From: Desulfomonile tiedjei DSM 6799
GTDB lineage: Bacteria; Desulfobacterota; Desulfomonilia; Desulfomonilales; Desulfomonilaceae
Assembly: GCF_000266945.1 (NCBI RefSeq)
Contig: NC_018025.1
Span: 3,786,001-3,850,000 of the forward strand
DNA length: 64,000 nt
Reading direction: 5' to 3'
Positions within the stretch are counted from its first letter, which is position 1; each line of letters begins with the position of its first letter. Below, piece after piece: positions 4,213 through 15,743 of this stretch. The position numbers and the translations under genes are program-made. The notes beneath the pieces were generated by a model, which saw nothing but the letters and a program-made list of their open reading frames with translations, ran no database searches and was not told where the DNA came from.

Positions 4213-4339
4213 GTGGCAACAGAATCCGGTCGCTATGCAGCAAGAAGCGGCACTGAGGTCGGGCTCTGATGCAGACACGATTCTTCCCGTGATAGCTTAA
4301 GGAATATCGCATCCGCCTACCGATTCAGGAGGTTTGGCC

Positions 4340-5764
4340 ATGATGGCTGGCTCTGTGTGCCGTGATGCCGATGTGTTGCGACTGGAAAAGTATGAAGATT
4401 GCCTGCACAAGCTCATACTTGATCTTGCGCACGTTGGCGTGCTGATAACGGATAGGAAAGGTGACATCAAATATCTGAACCCGACGTTCGCCATGATGTT
4501 CGACATGGACATCAAGACGGCCATCTCCAAGAATATCAACGACTATTTTCCCCATTCCAAGCTCATGAGGGTAATGGAAACGGGAATACCCGATAAGGCT
4601 GTTGAGTTTTCTTTCAAAGGCCAGAGTGCCCTCGTGAATCGCTATCCCATTACGCACCAGGGAGTGACTGCAGGCGGGTTTATTGAAGTGTATTTTCGGG
4701 ATATTAGAGATCTCCAGAAACTCATGCGCAAGATGACCAACCTGCAGAAGAAGGTCATCTATTATAAGCGCAAAAGCCAAGGGCTTCCGGGAGCATCGTA
4801 CACTTTTGATGACATCATAGGCCAGAGCACGGTCATACGAAAATTCAAGAAATTGGGTATGCAGTTCGCCCGCAGCTCTATTCCTGTTCTCGTACTCGGC
4901 GAGAGCGGTGCAGGAAAGGAACTGGTTGCGCATGCAATTCATTCCGCCGGTTCCAGGTCCGATGAGCCTTTTGTCCGTGTAAATTGCGCGGCAATTCCCA
5001 AGGACCTGCTAGAATCAGAGCTTTTCGGCTATGAGGAAGGAACATTCACTGGAGCCAAGACGGGCGGGAGAGTGGGGAAATTTGAGCTGGCCGACAAGGG
5101 AACCATATTCCTTGACGAAATCGGTGAGCTTCCCTTGGATATGCAGGCCAAGTTGTTGAGAGTACTGGAGAACGGAGAAATTCAGAAGATCGGGACTTCC
5201 GATGTGGTCTATTCGGATTTCAGACTGATCGCAGCAACGAACAAGGATTTGGCGGCATCTGTGGCCAAAGGCACCTTCAGGGAAGATCTGTACCATCGTC
5301 TTCACATTCTGGTGCTCGCAATTCCGCCATTGCGAGACAGGCCTGAAGATATTCCCCTGCTTGCGCAACACTTACTGGATACTACCAGAGATAAGCCATC
5401 CAACCTGGAAATCACCTTCGCAAGTGAAGTGAAGCAACTGCTGCAAGCTTACCCCTGGCCGGGCAATATTCGCGAACTCAGAAACGTGCTCACGTTCGCC
5501 GTTTTTTCGCTAGACGAAGGACAGACAGAGATCCGGCTGCGAAACCTTCCACCGTACATGCTCGAAAATCAGGTCATGATGGTAACCAGATTGAAGCCTG
5601 CACTGTCCCCTCTGAATCAGGCCAGAGAGAAATCGGAAAAAGAGGCTCTTCTGGCGGCCCTGGAGCAAACCGCACAAAACAAGGCTCAAGCCGCAAAACT
5701 GCTGGGAATATCCCGGAACGAAATTTACCGCAAAATGCGAAGATACGGACTTCTGTCCAGATAA
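4340..5764 (+). CDS. PAS-domain sigma-54-dependent transcriptional activator (Fis-type HTH)
   Basis: It has an N-terminal PAS-type sensor (about residues 15-120), an AAA+ domain with Walker A GESGAGKE and Walker B GTIFLDEIGE, the R-finger region LRDRPEDIP, and a C-terminal Fis-like HTH (KAQAAKLLGISRNEIYRKMRR). The sigma-54 contact loop reads GTFTGA instead of the usual GAFTGA. The start is placed at ATG 4340 because AGGAGG at 4327-4332 gives 7-nt spacing; a TTG at 4334 would be only 1 nt away. It probably senses a small metabolite and activates either the divergent molybdoenzyme operon or the downstream Xsc-like gene. No -24/-12 site was found near either. Confidence 0.9.
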   Translation: MMAGSVCRDADVLRLEKYEDCLHKLILDLAHVGVLITDRKGDIKYLNPTFAMMFDMDIKTAISKNINDYFPHSKLMRVMETGIPDKAVEFSFKGQSALVNRYPITHQGVTAGGFIEVYFRDIRDLQKLMRKMTNLQKKVIYYKRKSQGLPGASYTFDDIIGQSTVIRKFKKLGMQFARSSIPVLVLGESGAGKELVAHAIHSAGSRSDEPFVRVNCAAIPKDLLESELFGYEEGTFTGAKTGGRVGKFELADKGTIFLDEIGELPLDMQAKLLRVLENGEIQKIGTSDVVYSDFRLIAATNKDLAASVAKGTFREDLYHRLHILVLAIPPLRDRPEDIPLLAQHLLDTTRDKPSNLEITFASEVKQLLQAYPWPGNIRELRNVLTFAVFSLDEGQTEIRLRNLPPYMLENQVMMVTRLKPALSPLNQAREKSEKEALLAALEQTAQNKAQAAKLLGISRNEIYRKMRRYGLLSR

Positions 5765-5817
5765 ACTCGATCCCCCCGAATCAGATGATTCTGCGCTTCG
5801 GGAGACAGTCTCCTGAC

Positions 5818-5867
5818 TGACGTGCTTCCATTCAAGCGCGGGATCCAATCTCATTGATGTCATCTCA
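5818..5867. repeat. 50-bp repeat R4, copy 1
   Basis: It starts TGACGTGCTTCCATTCAAGC, runs through CCAATCTCATTGATGTCAT and matches 6335-6384 at roughly four of five positions. It sits just downstream of the sigma-54 activator gene. Confidence 0.45.
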
Positions 5868-5935
5868 TATCGATTTGCTTTCAGAGTTAGACGAAAATCC
5901 CCTCTACCCCCATAGGCGCTACCTCGCTGTAATTC

Positions 5936-6085
5936 TTTGTCCTGCAGGGACCAAAGAAAATAGCCCGGTAATTTATTGCCGGGAATCTGTGTATCAGCCG
6001 TCCCGCCGGGACTCGAGAATCATTAGGTTTTTCCCTTAACCGGCGATGAATCGCCGGCCTATTTTCAGTTGTTCCTCCGGAACAA
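5936..6085. repeat. Cluster of five short hairpins
   Basis: Five successive inverted repeats occur in 150 bp of non-coding DNA: GTCC-TGCA-GGGAC (about 5939-5951), CCCGG..CCGGG (5964-5983), GTCCC-GCC-GGGAC (6000-6012), CCGGCGAT-GA-ATCGCCGG (6040-6057, perfect) and TTGTTCC-TCC-GGAACAA (6069-6085, perfect). No T-tract follows any of them. It could be decayed mobile DNA, REP-type repeats or a structured RNA. The 5765-6687 gap otherwise holds only repeats R3 and R4. Confidence 0.5.
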
Positions 6086-6119
6086 ACGATCCAGAACACG
6101 CTAATTTAGCGCTTATAGC

Positions 6120-6293
6120 AGTTGCCAAAATTAGTGACCGATTGAAGAGTAGGAATATTGGTAGGTGCCGTGCCTCCGTGCCGGCACATCTTCAATATGA
6201 TCAATGATATCGATGAATGGACCGGCAGCGACGCCGGTCCCTACCAATATCCTGTAATTCACACGAGGGATAAACGACAGAATTTTTGGCACT
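6120..6293. repeat. MITE-like repeat R3, copy 2 (uninterrupted)
   Basis: The ends are inverted repeats: AGTTGCCAAAATT on the left and AATTTTTGGCACT on the right. The interior has GC-rich palindromic pieces (GTGCCGGCAC; CCGGCAGCGACGCCGG). It matches the outer parts of 3683-3991. It is non-coding, about 174 bp. Confidence 0.5.
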
Positions 6294-6334
6294 GACTATA
6301 TGGGGAATGGGGGGATTTTGAATGCAAATTGGTA

Positions 6335-6384
6335 TGACGTGCCTCTATTCAAGCGCATGATCGAATCTCATTGATGTCACGTCA
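6335..6384. repeat. 50-bp repeat R4, copy 2
   Basis: This copy begins TGACGTG and ends CACGTCA, so its termini form a 7-bp inverted repeat. The interior (ATTCAAGCGCATGATCGAAT) matches 5818-5867. The segment just before it (6301-6333) resembles the right part of the element at 53157-53243. Confidence 0.45.
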
Positions 6385-6687
6385 ACTCCTCCAAGCACGG
6401 TGAAAAGCGAACCGTCCGGCGTCGGGAATCGAACAGACGAGTCGGCTGGCACACTTCCTGCACCAGTCACTACATATGTGCCTTCAATCGAAGGCTCGAA
6501 CAGTACGAATCTGCCAACCCTTTATCGACCCATACTTGCCGGGTTTCCTATTCCACAGCGACAGATGCCGCTTCCGGGTTGGCCGATGACGAATGTTGCC
6601 CAGACACGCCGCAAACAGGTCGGCTGTTTTTTCGCTCGATACGTTCTTTAAAAGAAACGCTCGAGCAGCAACCAGGAGGAAATGAGG

Positions 6688-8424
6688 ATGACGACAATGA
6701 AAATGTTGGCCAGTGAGGCGCTGGTCGAAACAATGGTCGCAGAAGGAGTAAAAGAAGTATTTGGGCTCGTCGGTTCCGCGTTCATGGATGTGCTGGATCT
6801 CTTTCCCCAGGCAGGCATCCGTTTTGTCTATGTTGCTCACGAACAGGCTGCAGCTCATGCCGCCGACGGACTGGCACGGGTTACGGGAAGACCGCAAGTA
6901 TGTATCGCGCAAAACGGCCCTGGCGCGATCAACTTTGTTTCGGGGATCACGGCCGCATTTTGGGCTCATTCCCCTGTGGTCGCAGTCACTCCGGAAACAG
7001 GAAGCAAAGGAATAGGTACAGGCGGGTTCCAGGAGATCGATCAGTTACCTTTTTTCCAGCCAAACACAAAATTCCAAGTTCGACTCAATCGTCCCGACCG
7101 CATGGCCGAAGTGGCTCGCCGCTGCTTCTATATCGCCAAATCCGAGATGGGACCTACCCAGCTCAATATCCCGAGAGACTACTTTTACGGAATCGTCCAG
7201 GACGAAATCTATACAACTCCGGAACTACTGAGAGGCGCCGGTCCCGCAAGCCAGCTTGCAGCAGCAGCAAACCTTTTGTCACAGGCCCGGTATCCTGTGA
7301 TTCTCGCTGGTGGCGGAGTTTCCATGGGTGATGCACTTGACGAGACCAAGATGCTTGCTGAATACCTGACTGCACCCGTAGTGAACAGCTACCTCCATAA
7401 TGATTCTTTCCCGTACGATCATCCCCTGGGAACCGGCCCGATAGGTTACTGCGGTTCCAAAGCAGCCATGAGGACCATAGCCAAAGCAGATGTAGTATTA
7501 GCTCTGGGCTGCCGTCTCGGTCCGTTCGGTACACTTCCCCAGTACGATATAGACTATTGGCCGAAGGGTGCCAAGATCGTTCAAGTAGATATTGACAGCC
7601 GAGTGCTCGGGCTCAGCAAGCGAGTCGAATTGGGGATCCTGGCCGATGCCAAAGCATTCGCTCAGGAACTCCTGTTGAAGCTCAAAGCTCAGGATGCTAA
7701 CCGAAAGTCGGACACCAATCGCATTGAAGACGTAAAGAAGGAAAAAGCCGACTGGGAGGAAGAGCTCCAGGCCACATCCTCATCATCCCAGAATCCGATG
7801 CATCCTCGACGCTTTCTTAAGGAGTTTTCCGCCGCCATTCCCAAGGACGCCATCGTCACCACGGATATCGGAAATACGTGTTCCATGGCAAATGCTTACC
7901 TGAAATTCAACGGTATTCGCCAGCACCTCTCTGCTTTGAGCTGGGGCAACTGCGGATTTGCTTACGGAGCAGCCCTTGGGGCAAAGATAGGAGCTCCGGA
8001 TAAGCCGGTCTTCGCGCTCCAGGGTGATGGCGCATGGGGAATAAGTGGTCTTTCTGAAGTAATGACTGCTGTGAGAGAGAACATCCCCGTTATTGCCGTG
8101 GTGTTCAACAATTTCGAGTGGGGTGCTGAGAAAAAGAACCAGGTAGACTACTACAATGAACGTTATCTAGGTGTGGATCTCCTGAGCAATCCGAATTTTG
8201 CTCAGCTCGCCAAGGACATGGGCGCAGAAGGGTACAGAGTACATGAGGCGGGAGACGTCCAGGAGTCCATTAACGCGGCCATTGCGAGCGGCAAACCGGC
8301 AGTAATTGAGGTCATTCAACAGGGTGGGAAGACGGTGTTGGCCGAGCCCTTCAGGCGGGATGCTCTCCAGCCGGCTTTACGGTATCTTCCCAAGTATGCA
8401 CACTTGACGGTCAAGCCGGAGTGA
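6688..8424 (+). CDS. xsc: Xsc-family thiamine-diphosphate enzyme (sulfoacetaldehyde acetyltransferase-like)
   Basis: This 578-residue protein has the three-domain acetolactate-synthase fold. The N-terminal PYR part has the catalytic Glu in AHEQAAAHAADG, the central part has GPIGYCGSKAAM and DIDYWPKGAKIVQVDID, and the C-terminal PP part has GDGAWG and VFNNFEWGAEKKNQ. The last motifs and EPFRRDA near the end are typical of Xsc, which cleaves sulfoacetaldehyde with phosphate to acetyl phosphate and sulfite. Xsc assignment is by recalled motifs; other substrates are possible. No phosphotransacetylase or taurine transaminase is adjacent. Start at ATG 6688 is 8 nt after AGGAGG (6674-6679); an ATG at 6682 would be too close. 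Confidence 0.65.
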   Translation: MTTMKMLASEALVETMVAEGVKEVFGLVGSAFMDVLDLFPQAGIRFVYVAHEQAAAHAADGLARVTGRPQVCIAQNGPGAINFVSGITAAFWAHSPVVAVTPETGSKGIGTGGFQEIDQLPFFQPNTKFQVRLNRPDRMAEVARRCFYIAKSEMGPTQLNIPRDYFYGIVQDEIYTTPELLRGAGPASQLAAAANLLSQARYPVILAGGGVSMGDALDETKMLAEYLTAPVVNSYLHNDSFPYDHPLGTGPIGYCGSKAAMRTIAKADVVLALGCRLGPFGTLPQYDIDYWPKGAKIVQVDIDSRVLGLSKRVELGILADAKAFAQELLLKLKAQDANRKSDTNRIEDVKKEKADWEEELQATSSSSQNPMHPRRFLKEFSAAIPKDAIVTTDIGNTCSMANAYLKFNGIRQHLSALSWGNCGFAYGAALGAKIGAPDKPVFALQGDGAWGISGLSEVMTAVRENIPVIAVVFNNFEWGAEKKNQVDYYNERYLGVDLLSNPNFAQLAKDMGAEGYRVHEAGDVQESINAAIASGKPAVIEVIQQGGKTVLAEPFRRDALQPALRYLPKYAHLTVKPE

Positions 8425-9121: not shown

Positions 9122-10159
9122 ATGGGTAAACAGGATGTAATAGATGCCGTAAAGGGACTTCCCACGGAGAAGGTCCCATGGGTTCCATATGCGGGGGTGC
9201 ATTGTGCTCACATGATCGACCAGCCTGCCGATAAGTATCTCCAAGACCCTGATCTGATCGTCGAGGGGGTCATGTTCACCGCAGAGAGATACAAAGCCGA
9301 CGGGATTCCGCTTTTGTTCGACCTGACGGTCGAAGCAATCTCTATGGGTTGCGATCACAAGTGGTGGCCGGACAACCCCCCTTCCATCACAGGGCACCCT
9401 CTCGACAAACAGAACCTCGTAGAATCCGGAATCAAGATACCTGGCCCCAAAGATGGTAGGTGGCCAGTCATCGTTGAGGCCGGCAGAAGACTAAAGGCCG
9501 CAATGCCCGATGTCGCTCTCTTCGGCATCCTCTGTGGCCCGTTGACCCTGGCCAGCCATTTGCGCGGAGTTCGGATCTTCACAGATGTGTACAAGAACAA
9601 GGTACTCGCGAAAGAAATCGTAGATTTCTGCGGTCAAGTCGCAGGTGAGTCGGCCAGGATCTATGCCGAGGAAATTGGGTGTGACGTAATAGCGATCACG
9701 GATCCTGTGGCATCTCAGATCAAACCCGAAACGTTTCGCGAATTTGTGACGCCTGCCTGTCAACCGGCCATCCAGGCGGCTAGAAAGGCGGGAAAGGTCT
9801 CGAGCTTCTTTATATGCGGCGACGCCACGAAGGTACTGGAAGAAGTGGCGCAAGTAGGAACTGACGGCTTTGCGATTGATGAGCAGTTGAACCTCACGTA
9901 CGTCAGGGATGTGGCACGCAAGCATAATGTTGGCTTCGGAGGAAACCTAAAGCTTACCTTGGCTTTGTCTTTGGGCATTGTGTCGCCGCGCGAAGACGCG
10001 ATCGCCTCTTTGGCCGCTGGAGGATCTACGGGATACGTTTTTGCCCCAGGGTGAGACATGCCCTACGATGTTCCGGCGGAACACGTGGATCAAGTTGTCG
10101 AGGCGGTGGAGTGGTATAACACCTACTTCGCAAAATATCCCCATCATATGATCAAATAG
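9122..10159 (+). CDS. UroD/MtaA-type corrinoid methyltransferase homologue, predicted selenoprotein (Sec311)
   Basis: The frame codes 310 residues of a uroporphyrinogen-decarboxylase-superfamily barrel, reaches TGA at 10052-10054, then continues open for 34 codons to TAG at 10157. The read-through segment (DMPYDVPAEHV, then a Glu/Val helix) is what this family has after its conserved GC[DE][IV]P motif. The TGA thus replaces a conserved Cys, which in MtaA/MtbA-type methyltransferases is a zinc ligand. A hairpin with a G-first loop follows (10065-10086). The other thiol ligand would be Cys242 in FFICGDATK; the usual His two residues earlier is Phe. The likely role is methyl transfer between a corrinoid protein and a thiol. 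Start ATG 9122 follows AAGGAG. The next gene's AGGAGG overlaps the TAG, supporting the longer frame. Confidence 0.75.
10065..10086 (+). promoter_or_regulatory. Bacterial SECIS-like hairpin
   Basis: ACG-(A)-TGTTCC, loop GGC, then GGAACA-CGT forms a 9-bp stem with one bulged A. The first loop base, a G, follows 20 nt after the UGA at 10052-10054. Bacterial SECIS elements are stem-loops starting shortly after the UGA with a G at the first or second loop position, which fits. Folding energy was not computed. Confidence 0.6.
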
Positions 10160-10168
10160 GAGGTTGCG

Positions 10169-10558
10169 ATGTCGGGAAAAATACAAATCGATGTTCTCAC
10201 ACTGGACAGCGTTCAGTGTGCGGCCTGCGGTTATATGATGGAATCCATTGCGGCTCTGCCCAAGGAGATTCAGGACATAATCGAATACAAGGAATGGTCG
10301 ATAAAGAACAAAGAGGGCATCGGAAAATTCCTTGAGATGAAAGGAAAGGTACTTCCAACCATAGCCATTCAGGGAGATCTACTCTTCGAATCCATCATTC
10401 CGCAGTACGAAGAATTGATCGATGCCATGGCCGACCGCGCCCCAAGCCAGGAAATGGCAACCAGGATCAGGATGCTCCGAGATATGGGGTTTGACTTCGA
10501 CAATCTGTCAGCCAATCTGGAGCGGGCTGAAGCGGGCAAACACACACGGCGAGAGTGA
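10169..10558 (+). CDS. Thioredoxin-fold-like small protein with CxxC motif
   Basis: This 129-residue protein has a beta-strand start (KIQIDVLTLDSVQC), a CAAC pair at Cys17 and Cys20, a helix, and a later LPTIAIQGDLLFES segment. The Val-Leu-Pro-Thr stretch resembles the cis-Pro region of thioredoxin-fold proteins. The C-terminal 30 residues are a charged helix without a known family in my memory. AGGAGG at 10158-10163 overlaps the stop of the selenoprotein, so the two are translationally linked. It could reduce the Sec/Cys site of the methyltransferase homologue. This is inference only. Confidence 0.65.
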   Translation: MSGKIQIDVLTLDSVQCAACGYMMESIAALPKEIQDIIEYKEWSIKNKEGIGKFLEMKGKVLPTIAIQGDLLFESIIPQYEELIDAMADRAPSQEMATRIRMLRDMGFDFDNLSANLERAEAGKHTRRE

Positions 10559-12443: not shown

Positions 12444-14124
12444 GAAACTGTCTCAAAACTCCATTTTGGGCTCGCGATTTGCCAAGAGATGTACTAGAAA
12501 GGAGAGGAATTCAACAACCACGAGGCTGTCATGGGCAAACAGATCCGGGCCGATTACGAACAGATCTTGATGTTTCCGCCGTCAGTGGAAGACTGGGTGG
12601 CTAAGGATCACCCGGCGCGCTTTATCCGAGATTTCGTGGATTCCTTGGATCTGTCCGAGTTGGGAATCGAGGTTCCCGACAGCGATACAGGACGTCCTCC
12701 GTATGCGCCAGATCTTCTGTTGAAGGTGTGGCTTTTCGGATACTTCAATCGGATCAGGAGTACCCGTAAGCTTGAAAAGGGTTGCCTTGAGAATATGGGG
12801 CTGATTTGGCTGACGGGGATGAATGCTCCGGATCATAATTCCTTATGGCGATTCTTCAAGGCGAACAAGAAATCATTGAGGCATCTGTTCAGACAGTCGA
12901 TTCGTGTTGCTCTGAAGGCCGATCTGATCGGTCTAGCTCTTCATGCCGTGGACGGGACCAAGATCCAAGCCGTCTCATCCAACGACAAGGCTCGGGGTCG
13001 TGAGCACCTGGAGAGGTTTCTGGAAAGTGTTTCGGAGAGATTGGACCGCACGATTGCCGATGCGATGACTGAGATAGAGAGAGCCGAGCGGGAAGAGACC
13101 GGTGAGTATCGCCTTCCGCAGTCCATGCAAGACGGATTGAAACGGAAACAGCGGATACAAGAGGCTCTGAAGGAGTTGGATGAATCGGACAAGAAGTCAG
13201 TTCACCCTTCGGAACCGGAAGCTCGCTTTATGAAGAATCGCCGGACCAAAGACTTGTCGTACAACGCTCAGGCGGTTGCCGACCAAAAGAGCGGCCTTAT
13301 CGTGGCCGCAGATGTGGTCACGGATGGGGCCGACAACGGGCAATTGGTCCCCATGCTCGACAAGGTGAAAGAGAATCTGGGCGCTGTGGCAGAGGAAAAT
13401 GTGGCGGACGGGGGATATTTTTCCTCAGGGCAGATAGGTCTGGCCCATGAGCGAGAATACGGCATTCTTATCGGGAAATCGTCAGGGGAAATTGTTTCCG
13501 AGAGAGGTGCGGATGAGGATCTCTATCACCGATCCCGGTTCGTCTTTGATCAGGAGCGTGATTGCTTCATATGCCCTGAAGGGCGCTTGTTGCCTTTTCA
13601 TCAGCGGAAAATTAACGGCAAGAACCACAATGAGGTTCGCAGGTATCACTGCAAGGATTTTCTAACGTGTCCCAATCGCTGGAAATGCTCCAAGAGCAAG
13701 AACGGACGCCTCATAGACCTCAGCGTTTACGAGGCGGCCCTAGAACGACACCGCAGCAAGAGGGAAAAACCAGAGAACAAAGAGCGCCTGAAGACTCGAA
13801 AGAAGATTATCGAGCCACCGTTTGCCTGGATCAAGAGCGCATTAAGCTTTCGGCGATGGACCGTGGCCGGAATCGACAACGTAAAGGCCCAGTGGGACCT
13901 TATTTGCACGACCATAAATCTCAGGAAGCTCTACCACCATTGGGTATCCGGCGAGGTGGCATTCACGTAAGCAGCCGGAGGGAGACCATGACCTTATAAC
14001 GGACAGTACACTCGGATCGAACCTCGCCTGATCTTCACTTGACGGGACTGCTTTTTTCCCAGAAGCAGGTCCTCCCGTCCGGCTTGCGTGATTCGCCGCA
14101 GTGCGCAGGTTTTGAGACGCTTTC
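12444..14124 (+). mobile_element. IS1182-family insertion sequence, copy A (1681 bp)
   Basis: The termini GAAACTGTCTCAAAA and TTTTGAGACGCTTTC are inverted repeats. The 4-bp target duplication TGAC lies at 12440-12443 and 14125-14128. It carries a single transposase gene. The other copy (34079-35759) has exactly the same length and an identical transposase, so transposition or duplication was recent. Confidence 0.85.
12531..13970 (+). CDS. IS1182-family transposase, copy A
   Basis: The 479-residue DDE transposase has the N-terminal DUF772-like domain (PPYAPDLLLKVWLFGYF, NRIRSTRKLE) and a catalytic core starting at HAVDGTKIQA. It continues with the second acidic region ADGGYFSSGQIG and a C-terminal Cys-rich part (CPEGRLLPF, CPNRWKC) before RWTVAGIDNVKAQWDL. 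It is intact and identical at protein level to the copy on the minus strand at 34233-35672. It starts 87 bp inside the left end of the element. Confidence 0.9.
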   Translation: MGKQIRADYEQILMFPPSVEDWVAKDHPARFIRDFVDSLDLSELGIEVPDSDTGRPPYAPDLLLKVWLFGYFNRIRSTRKLEKGCLENMGLIWLTGMNAPDHNSLWRFFKANKKSLRHLFRQSIRVALKADLIGLALHAVDGTKIQAVSSNDKARGREHLERFLESVSERLDRTIADAMTEIERAEREETGEYRLPQSMQDGLKRKQRIQEALKELDESDKKSVHPSEPEARFMKNRRTKDLSYNAQAVADQKSGLIVAADVVTDGADNGQLVPMLDKVKENLGAVAEENVADGGYFSSGQIGLAHEREYGILIGKSSGEIVSERGADEDLYHRSRFVFDQERDCFICPEGRLLPFHQRKINGKNHNEVRRYHCKDFLTCPNRWKCSKSKNGRLIDLSVYEAALERHRSKREKPENKERLKTRKKIIEPPFAWIKSALSFRRWTVAGIDNVKAQWDLICTTINLRKLYHHWVSGEVAFT

Positions 14125-14197: not shown

Positions 14198-15743
14198 GTA
14201 AAGCTTCAGTTATTCGCGGGAGCAATTGTGATGGATATAGCTATTCTTGAGGGCCGTTTCTTTGAAAGAGGAGTTCATAGGGGTCCAGCTTAAGATTCGT
14301 TGCTAATTGATCGAGAGTTTTCTTCATCTGTTCTGCAGGGTCGTTACCTCGTTTCTTGAGGGTGGTGAGGACGGTTGTGAGAATACTGCGCGTCTTGGCT
14401 CCGTTATCAGAAATAGATCCATAGCTGACCTTCCTTGCCACAACAGTGGGTCTCAGATCTCTTTCGGCTAAATTGTTTTCTGCCGGAATCGTTCGGTCTC
14501 GAGCCCAGTGATAGAGCCTCTCTTCATTTTCACGGAAGATACCTTGGATCCGGCGAATGCCCATATGGCGGGCCGGTCGTTCCATTGCGGCCTTAATTTC
14601 AGTCCGAAGCTTAGCCGCTCGACGATAGAATTGCTTATCCGTAATCGGTTGGCTGCGAAGTCCCTGAGCGAGTGCAAGTAAAGGAGCCACAACAGCCACA
14701 AAAGTTGAGACCTCTGCTTCTTCGGGAAACTCTTTTTCCAAATCCTGGACATCTCGCAGAAGGTGAGCGTAACAATATTGAATCTCACATGGAGCTTTCT
14801 TGTAGCCGCGGTAACGATCCACAACCAAAACGCCCGGTAGCCGATCTTTGCCGAGGACTGCATGAGCTACTTGGGACGAGCGACTCTTGCCAAATTGGAA
14901 AATGCTCAAATCGGGAGTGGCGAAGAGCCAAACGTATCCGTTCTTGCCGTCAGTGCGCCAGCTCGTCTCATCTGCGTGTTTCACAGGAGCTTGTCGATAT
15001 TCTTCAATGAGCTTCTGGGGAACTCTTTCAAAAAGTCGCCCCATTCGATGATATACCTCCATCAGGCTTCCTTCGCTTACTCCAGTCTGTTCACAGATTC
15101 GTCCCATGGGAAGACCATAGAAGTAATACATCGTCATGGCATTGGCAATGAGTTGATTTCCGTAAAGACTCTTGGGAAGCACCCCGGGAGTCTGGGGAGT
15201 AAACGTGCGTTCACAACGATAACAATACCTTTTGGGTAAGCGAAATACTATTCGTTCGGGTTTTTGAGAAGGCGTATCCAGGACACTCCTCTCTTCCACC
15301 CCTTTCTTTTCAAGAATACCCCCGCATTCGGGACAGATATCTGGAGCCTCCACTTCTACCGCATAATCAAACTCGCACTCGTGGCTCTTGCGACCGGAAC
15401 CTTTGTGTCCCTGCCGCGCACCTTTGGGCTTTTTCTCCTTCTGTTCACTGTTCCTCTTGATTGGTATTTTGGATGAGGGAGTGGAAGAGCCGAAGTATCC
15501 TTCTTGAGCCTTGCGCTCTTGATAGCGCAGTTTAGCCTCCAGGCTCTGGATCTTTTCTTTTAACTCGTCAATGCAACGCTGTTTTTCCAAACAAACCGGA
15601 CAACCGTTTATGCCCATCCCATCATCACCTGAACAAGCGTTTCACCCACCAAGCCTATACCCCATCTCAAACCCGAACGCGAGAACCATTTAACCCCAAA
15701 AATAAAATTCTTCTCAAACTACCGCTCGAAACTGAAGCTTTAC
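14198..15743 (-). mobile_element. IS66-family element of the transposase-only type (1546 bp)
   Basis: The ends are inverted repeats GTAAAGCTTCAGTTATTCG / CGAAACTGAAGCTTTAC. Only the large transposase is encoded; tnpA and tnpB-like genes are absent, as in the ISBst12-type subgroup. It abuts the right target duplication of the MITE at 12226-14189. The 8 bp on its two sides (AACAGAGT and CCGGCAAG) do not match, so its own duplication has been lost or it is rearranged. Confidence 0.8.
14241..15617 (-). CDS. IS66-family transposase (TnpC-type)
   Basis: The 458-residue protein has an N-terminal Cys pair (CPVCLEKQRC) with a leucine-rich coiled coil. A zinc-finger segment (CPECGGIL .. CYRCERTF) follows, then the DDE core: KHADETSW, VVDRYRGYK and PAENNLAERDLRP. 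These are standard IS66 landmarks. The frame is intact. Confidence 0.92.
   Translation of the reverse strand: MGINGCPVCLEKQRCIDELKEKIQSLEAKLRYQERKAQEGYFGSSTPSSKIPIKRNSEQKEKKPKGARQGHKGSGRKSHECEFDYAVEVEAPDICPECGGILEKKGVEERSVLDTPSQKPERIVFRLPKRYCYRCERTFTPQTPGVLPKSLYGNQLIANAMTMYYFYGLPMGRICEQTGVSEGSLMEVYHRMGRLFERVPQKLIEEYRQAPVKHADETSWRTDGKNGYVWLFATPDLSIFQFGKSRSSQVAHAVLGKDRLPGVLVVDRYRGYKKAPCEIQYCYAHLLRDVQDLEKEFPEEAEVSTFVAVVAPLLALAQGLRSQPITDKQFYRRAAKLRTEIKAAMERPARHMGIRRIQGIFRENEERLYHWARDRTIPAENNLAERDLRPTVVARKVSYGSISDNGAKTRSILTTVLTTLKKRGNDPAEQMKKTLDQLATNLKLDPYELLFQRNGPQE

Follow-up and report, generated by a model that had tools for sequence, protein, structure and literature searches.

A UroD/MtaA-fold protein with a probable selenocysteine at a cysteine-ligand position, and its thioredoxin-like partner, in Desulfomonile tiedjei

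Within a 64,000-nt stretch of the Desulfomonile tiedjei DSM 6799 genome (contig NC_018025.1, positions 3,786,001 to 3,850,000; hereafter the window, whose first letter is position 1), a gene of the UroD/MtaA type contains an in-frame TGA, which raises the question of whether this codon ends a 310-residue protein or is read as selenocysteine (Sec) within a 345-residue one and, in the latter case, what chemistry the residue would serve. A preliminary description, made from the sequence alone, had placed the TGA exactly at a conserved Cys and had followed the frame for 34 codons to a TAG overlapping the ribosome site of the next gene. Both claims held: in a phmmer alignment with MtaA (4ay7) the TGA residue pairs with the APGC cysteine, and the 34 further codons run to the TAG at 10157-10159, with the ATG of the next gene at 10169 (Table 1). 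The description's reading of the codon as Sec311 is supported by the conservation of the TGA, by Cys forms nested within the Sec clade, by a hairpin under selection and by the Sec machinery of the genome, and we regard it as very likely, no selenium incorporation having been measured.

Table 1. Features of the locus in window positions, with a tRNA and elongation-factor pair from locus L063 of the same genome
Feature	Position	Strand	Remarks
Sigma-54-dependent regulator, upstream (context)	4334..5764	+	Pfam Sigma54_activat
Thiamine-diphosphate enzyme, upstream	6682..8424	+	Pfam TPP_enzyme N, M, C; link unsure
UroD/MtaA-fold selenoprotein gene (Sec reading very likely)	9122..10159	+	345 codons, UGA as codon 311, TAG stop
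Cys138 codon	9533..9535	+	commonly but not always Cys; invariant in the 31 rows of alignment A1
Phe230 codon, where MtaA has its zinc-ligand His	9809..9811	+	Phe, Tyr or Leu in 52/52 readable copies, never His
Cys232 codon, putative partner of Sec311	9815..9817	+	Cys in 52/52 readable copies; aligned with the MtaA HxC (HIC) cysteine
Glu254 codon (DEQ), conserved possible ligand	9881..9883	+	Glu in 53/53 readable copies
UGA, very likely read as selenocysteine 311	10052..10054	+	TGA at the equivalent codon of close copies
SECIS-like hairpin	10063..10088	+	5+6 bp helices, one bulged base, loop GGC (10075-10077)
GGAGG ribosome site of next gene	10159..10163	+	read directly; first base is the G of the TAG
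Thioredoxin-like partner, CAAC motif (Cys17, Cys20)	10169..10558	+	adjacency, fusion, weak fold match
Transposase gene, DDE type	12531-13970		
Transposase gene, IS66 type	14241-15617		
GCA tRNA-Sec-like gene	L063 2735-2826 (genome near 3562734)		
Second SelB-like ORF	L063 2632-4875 (genome near 3562952)		

Decoding of the in-frame UGA

Copies of the gene were collected by a peptide-pattern scan of genome contigs (35 loci) and from sampled genomes, the samples overlapping in that some pattern-scan loci were found again in others. Copies with a distinct sequence around the site number 54, comprising 48 close ones (at least 56% identical) in which codon 311 is readable, three distant copies (37–39% identity), all of which have Cys, and three that are truncated before the site. 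Among the close copies the codon is TGA in 44, Cys in three (L025, L026/L095 and L099) and Thr in one (L101), a comparative conservation (44/48) that puts chance out of question. A misread frame or a sequencing error is ruled out as well, the TGA being common to two genomic copies, of which the second, in the same genome as the window, is 85% identical to the first, and to 42 other distinct copies.

The family ranges over Desulfobacterota, Bacillota and Actinomycetota. In the phylum sample, copies were found at E 1e-100 in 9 of 395 genomes (10 copies, 9 with TGA); a class sample of Actinomycetota yielded them at E 1e-80 in 6 of 249 genomes, all with TGA and all six already among the pattern-scan loci. 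The class of L030 (Desulfotomaculum copahuensis, Bacillota) yielded copies at E 1e-40 in 11 of 113 genomes (10 TGA, one Cys), and relatives of the window's genome did so at E 1e-30 in 10 of 60, including Thr, Cys and more distant copies. In each of the 31 rows of alignment A1 the reading frame runs on past the TGA with protein-like codons, and the alignment continues beyond the site in 51/51 readable copies, so that homologues ending at the site, which the preliminary description had named as a refutation, were not met with.

A tree was built from 52 rows, namely 47 of the 54 copies and five canonical MtaA homologues as outgroup, with the trait residue masked and the partial copies L052, L053, L054, L055, L058, L059 and L099 omitted. 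Three changes account for the three states (Sec, Cys and Thr), the minimum possible being two, and the Cys pair L025/L095 (support 97/81) is nested within the Sec clade, where it joins a Sec row (100/99). Read most simply, the tree implies that Sec arose once from Cys and was lost twice, reverting to Cys in L025 and L095 and changing to Thr in the other case; long branches are flagged by the tree program for the canonical outgroup, L097, L098, L101 and L074. The copy with Thr311 (L101 1495-2520) is a paralogue adjoining an MtrH-like gene, in a genome that also carries a TGA copy.

Behind the TGA the preliminary description had seen a bulged 9-bp hairpin starting 10 nt downstream, a claim that held in part: the GGC loop and the bulge are present, with a distance of 8 nt and helices of 5 and 6 bp. 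Folding of the 44-nt stretch gave −13.6 kcal/mol compared with −9.34 (s.d. 2.47) for shuffled sequences (z −1.72; 13 of 200 shuffles as good), which, taken alone, is modest to weak evidence. When compared with 400 synonymous recodings of the same peptide, the window hairpin reached z −3.09 (fraction 0.0025); the mean z over 35 TGA copies (400 recodings each) was −1.63, two Cys copies gave +0.64 and −0.29, and the test was mixed from copy to copy (fractions for TGA copies from 0 to 0.275). Furthermore, Val317 is encoded by GTT in 35/35 TGA copies, and in 43/43 by a DNA pattern scan of the hairpins (43 TGA copies, versus 44 in the main count), GTT making up 19% of Val codons in the same genes. 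At codon 319 the amino acid varies (Val, Ala, Leu, Ser), with a third base G in 34/34 EH-type copies that pairs with an invariant C. The stem of these EH-type copies retains its five inner pairs in 34/34, the next in 33/34 and the outermost in 20/34, and in EN-type copies a 3′ arm displaced by 3 nt restores the stem (five pairs in 9/9, the sixth in 0/9). Two Cys copies, L026 and L099, have kept most of the inner stem, which is absent from the Cys sister L097, and no Rfam SECIS family matched the window hairpin at the gathering cut-off. On the basis of synonymous recoding and codon conservation, we conclude that the hairpin is kept by selection on codon choice.

The window's genome encodes SelA (599 bits), SelB (404.5 bits) and a tRNA-Sec with a UCA anticodon (69.5 bits); the preliminary description had proposed a check for sel genes, and the absence of the machinery that would have refuted it was not met. 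The locus fulfils what is asked of a bacterial selenoprotein, namely a UGA in frame at a conserved Cys, with homologues that carry Cys there, a SECIS hairpin just after the UGA, and Sec machinery in the genome (SelA, SelB, tRNA-Sec). Across 32 other genomes, tRNA-Sec is over the cut-off in 27 and SelA in 30 (31/33 counting the window's genome). The five genomes without tRNA-Sec over the cut-off are G396, G408, G414, G418 and G426, for which completeness was not given; G418 (completeness likewise not given) has a TGA copy, yet neither tRNA-Sec nor SelA over the cut-off. The window's genome also holds a second SelB-like factor (291.3 bits, cut-off 242.25) and, directly before its gene, a tRNA-Sec-like gene with a GCA anticodon (51.9 bits, cut-off 47). 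For the second SelB-like gene Table 1 gives an ORF that extends upstream of the gene's probable start.

Fold and site residues

Membership of the fold family is shown, the fold itself being predicted: the protein scores 175.5 bits against Pfam URO-D (PF01208; gathering cut-off 23.9), and an AF2 model (pLDDT 93.4, pTM 0.92) has as its best PDB matches the MtaA structures 4ay8 and 4ay7 (Z 39.8 and 39.6, rmsd 1.9–2.0). By sequence, the closest solved relative (phmmer) is MtaA of Methanosarcina mazei. Models for named enzymes of the superfamily were not satisfied, as the protein reached 126.3 bits against TIGR01463 (MtaA/CmuA; cut-off 235.4), 62.6 bits against HemE TIGR01464 (cut-off 302.95) and 103 bits against the MtaA model (cut-off 400), and no NCBIfam model exceeded its cut-off for it. 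TIGR01463 matched 31/31 rows of A1 at E 1e-10, a bit score being available for row 1 only.

The APGC-motif Cys of MtaA binds zinc, and UroD S-methyltransferases hold zinc with His-Cys-Cys (PMC10418091). This His-Cys-Cys site is not met here, where the corresponding residues are Phe/Tyr/Leu, Cys and Sec (or Cys). The preliminary description had spoken of a selenol in the zinc site, of which one part held and one did not: Sec at the ligand position is supported, and zinc binding is not shown, remaining unproven because the zinc His of MtaA is replaced by Phe, Tyr or Leu in every readable copy. In the absence of metal-binding data, we consider a Cys-Sec redox or soft-metal site at least as likely as a zinc site. 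Two further cysteines were considered as ligands and rejected, Cys138 as an essential one (Thr or Ile in L074, L088, L090 and L101) and Cys28, which varies in A1.

The thioredoxin-like partner and the gene neighbourhood

Adjacency of the gene to a small thioredoxin-like partner, and fusion with it, are shown. Of the 25 extended Sec-type regions, 24 have a partner homologue starting 17–90 nt downstream of the gene, the exception, L126 (=L028), being a TGA copy without an adjacent partner; the 26th extended region is a Cys fusion, which brings the count to 25/26 if the fusion is included. Sister Cys proteins are UroD-thioredoxin fusions in 3/3 cases (L092, L097, L098). Assignment of the partner's own fold is weaker: its AF2 model (pLDDT 85.4) places thioredoxin folds at the top of a Foldseek ranking with a best E of only 1.4e-2, the protein encoded in the window has no Pfam match, and it scored 32.7 bits against HUIPC_Trx_selen NF047660 (cut-off 105). 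As a separate observation, L025, L026 and L028 lack an adjacent thioredoxin-like gene, and two of the three have Cys instead of Sec.

In six Actinomycetota loci the partner is itself of UxxC form (LQUPACGYM), and extra thioredoxin-like copies read QUxACVYM, QUASGTYM or HUIPC. Neighbouring genes contain 20 in-frame stops, of which 19 are TGA and lie without exception in genes similar to thioredoxin-like probes (L038 only at E 4.9e-5); the single TAG stands at the end of a DUF6951 gene and is probably its normal end. The HUIPC neighbour in L066 passes NF047660 (134.3 versus 105 bits), so that a member of this known selenoprotein group occurs in the neighbourhood, the window partner being its distant relative; unlike the UroD enzyme, the HUIPC-motif thioredoxin-like selenoprotein is a small partner protein. 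In two thioredoxin-like genes (L030 9969 and L032 4637) the TGA falls within QUASGTYM, with Gly for the second Cys.

In the window the gene has only its partner beside it and lies away from corrinoid genes, and the full operon surrounds the second copy of the genome (L060). There the order is UroD-Sec, thioredoxin-like protein, MtrH, canonical MtaA homologue, corrinoid protein, HUIPC-like Cys protein (91.5 bits, below the NF047660 cut-off), TrxR-like flavoprotein (Pfam gives Pyr_redox_2, the TrxR label being our interpretation), RACo-type activase, Sec thioredoxin-like protein, DUF6951, DUF2284, thioredoxin_3 and CobW. The occurrence of corrinoid neighbours is shown across the 26 extended regions, which encode a corrinoid protein in 24, the activase in 17, CobW in 17, a canonical MtaA homologue in 13, MtrH in 11, DGC in 8, DUF2284 in 5 and an MIP domain in 5 (L060, on the opposite strand, L105, L119, L120 and L122). 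Counts for the corrinoid protein and the MtaA homologue exclude L062, where the gene is absent, and the regions vary in length, some stopping at contig ends, so that absences are not proof. A corrinoid protein and an activase nearby, the mark of a corrinoid methyltransferase system, are thus found for the family and not in the window itself.

Several further genes were observed in these regions. An MIP channel with a C-terminally fused thioredoxin domain (L105 11901-13028) lies in the gene run of a UroD selenoprotein; the fusion was seen in L105 only, the domains of L119 and L120 being mutually out of frame by position and L122 unresolved. A 460-aa MtmB homologue (L102 6347-7729; PF05369, 275.7 bits) without an in-frame stop directly precedes a UroD selenoprotein, and L103 carries a relative of it; MtmB is expected to carry a pyrrolysine codon, which this homologue lacks. 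A short SMC-like ATPase gene sits right behind Sec thioredoxin-like genes in 8/26 regions (L105 15479-16447, L106 10131-11111 and others), and a homologue of the window's thiamine-diphosphate enzyme is found upstream of the UroD selenoprotein in L124 too (4883-6601).

Proposed chemistry, rival explanations and known systems

The overall explanation that we judge likely is a Sec-containing UroD/MtaA protein that acts with a thioredoxin-like partner in a corrinoid methyl-transfer system. In this model, UGA311 would be read as Sec via the hairpin directly behind it (insertion in the cell being inferred), and Sec311 would replace the third zinc-ligand Cys of MtaA, with Cys232 retained and the zinc His lost. 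Cys232 and Sec311, whose separation was not measured, would form a soft pair binding or attacking a sulfur, selenium or metal(loid) group, at whose soft atom a methyl group would move to or from the corrinoid protein, the substrate being unidentified; the dithiol (or selenothiol) of the thioredoxin-like protein, supplied by the TrxR-like flavoprotein where present, would then reset the pair. The role in corrinoid methyl transfer is inferred and likely, with no activity or substrate measured. Resetting of the pair by the partner is also inferred, and we favour it by a narrower margin; a redox role for the partner is proposed because redox-neutral methyl transfer alone leaves the near-constant or fused thioredoxin unexplained. 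Against this explanation stand the window copy without corrinoid genes beside it, the partnerless L126, the five of 32 genomes without tRNA-Sec over the cut-off, and the paralogue L101, with neither Cys nor Sec at position 311.

Two rival explanations concern the codon itself. That the TGA is a genuine stop, ending a 310-residue UroD homologue and leaving the following 34 codons untranslated, has the standard code on its side and is all but excluded, given that the codons after the TGA remain in frame and protein-like throughout A1, that Cys copies within the Sec clade read through to the same end, and that the hairpin is under selection at synonymous sites. A rival that does not exclude Sec is that UGA311 is partly read as Cys, perhaps when selenium is short. 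It draws on the second SelB and the GCA tRNA-Sec-like gene lying side by side, on selC*/selB* pairs described for Syntrophobacterales and Desulfobacterales (PMC7609411), on the tRNA of GCA type that decodes UGA with Cys in Desulfotomaculum nigrificans (PMC11415595), and on the existence of family members with Cys at codon 311. A mixed Sec/Cys product is possible because such a pair is present and such a tRNA decodes UGA with Cys; nevertheless, the normal tRNA-Sec(UCA) is present too and reading of this hairpin by the second factor is not established, and on balance we lean against it.

The other rivals accept Sec311 and concern its chemistry. A plain zinc methyltransferase remains possible, though we consider it less likely; in it Sec would be a stronger zinc ligand along with Cys232, Glu254 and the substrate, a small thiol or selenol would be the acceptor, redox chemistry would play no part and the thioredoxin-like protein would have a side role. 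In its favour, UroD S-methyltransferases use the His-Cys-Cys zinc site, Cys232 and Glu254 are retained, and methylcobalamin:selenide transfer has been shown for ClMlp2 (PMC10418091). It is opposed by the loss of the His in all 52 readable copies and by the near-constant pairing, and sister-family fusion, with a CxxC protein (UxxC in some loci), which would be unexpected for redox-neutral transfer. Methyl transfer to or from a toxic metal(loid) (As, Sb, Hg) held by Cys232 and Sec311 is a lead only, and unlikely. It is favoured by a DUF2284 neighbour that aligns with the DUF2284 portions of two models, arsenite methyltransferase/DUF2284 and MbdU selenoprotein (88 bits to each, far under the whole-protein cut-offs of 575 and 600), by the DGC and DUF6951 neighbours, by the MIP channel domain in 5/26 regions (thioredoxin-fused in L105) and by the methylation of arsenic by MtaA as a side reaction (PMC13262295). 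Counting against it, no ars or mer gene was noticed among the neighbours (without a dedicated search), only a minority of the regions have the MIP domain, which in L060 lies on the opposite strand, and the MtmB homologue in L102 and MtaA-type neighbours point to ordinary methylated substrates. A bolder form of this idea, which we likewise hold to be improbable, is that organometal(loid)s have a dedicated corrinoid pathway that depends on selenium. Cys232/Sec311 would hold As, Sb or Hg, methyl groups would be exchanged between this metal(loid) and the corrinoid protein, and the reduced metal(loid) would be handled by the thioredoxin-like selenoproteins, the TrxR-like flavoprotein, the DUF2284, DUF6951 and DGC proteins and sometimes the MIP channel; if this were true, the protein would become a candidate for the enzyme by which anaerobes (de)methylate metal(loid)s with the help of corrinoids.

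Returning to the favoured explanation of a Sec protein in corrinoid methyl transfer, its nearest known counterpart is MtaA (methylcobamide:CoM methyltransferase), with which it shares the fold (4ay7: Z 39.6, rmsd 2.0, 29% identity), the alignment of Cys232 and residue 311 with the HxC and APGC cysteines, and the corrinoid proteins nearby, and from which it differs in the lost zinc His, in Sec for the second Cys and in the thioredoxin-like partner. The Mlp proteins of type 1 mlp clusters, which combine Mlp2 and Mlp3, are similarly MtaA-like proteins of anaerobes with a corrinoid protein, an activase and a link to selenium; unlike the present family they are almost invariably His-Cys-Cys, the Sec-containing genes described there are others, and none of the three clusters detailed has the H4folate methylase (PMC10418091), whereas MtrH is found in 11/26 regions here. 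Sec-assisted organometallic (SAO) and Tso operons resemble these loci in having several selenoproteins per operon, SAO with an organometal theme, and differ in that their protein families in Table 1 of PMC13188914 do not include URO-D. Pyrrolysine methylamine methyltransferases likewise belong to a corrinoid methyltransferase system in which a stop codon is recoded; they use UAG and pyrrolysine rather than UGA and Sec, belong to a different family and act on methylamines.

The preliminary description was unsure whether such a family had been recorded. No URO-D family appears in Table 1 of the 2026 review PMC13188914 (119 prokaryotic selenoprotein families or subfamilies), whose text contains neither 'uroporphyrinogen' nor 'PF01208', and look-up by terms found no URO-D selenoprotein in PMC12013277, PMC1914089, PMC5029168, PMC1242214, PMC9312934 or PMC2398784 (supplements not covered); 34 putative selenoproteins are given in the supplements of PMC8318568. 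Mention elsewhere in the literature is not excluded, and we describe the protein as an apparently unlisted Sec form of MtaA-like methyltransferases, one that has an altered site and is paired with a redox partner.

On the very likely Sec reading, these results add to the URO-D superfamily a selenoprotein family that is unlisted in that review table, and they place selenium beside a likely corrinoid methyl-transfer site; some loci hold a cluster of several selenoprotein genes. The standard code closes such genes at the UGA, so that annotation may truncate them. The Cys fusion sister family offers a natural Sec-free comparison, by which the value of selenium in this chemistry becomes directly testable.
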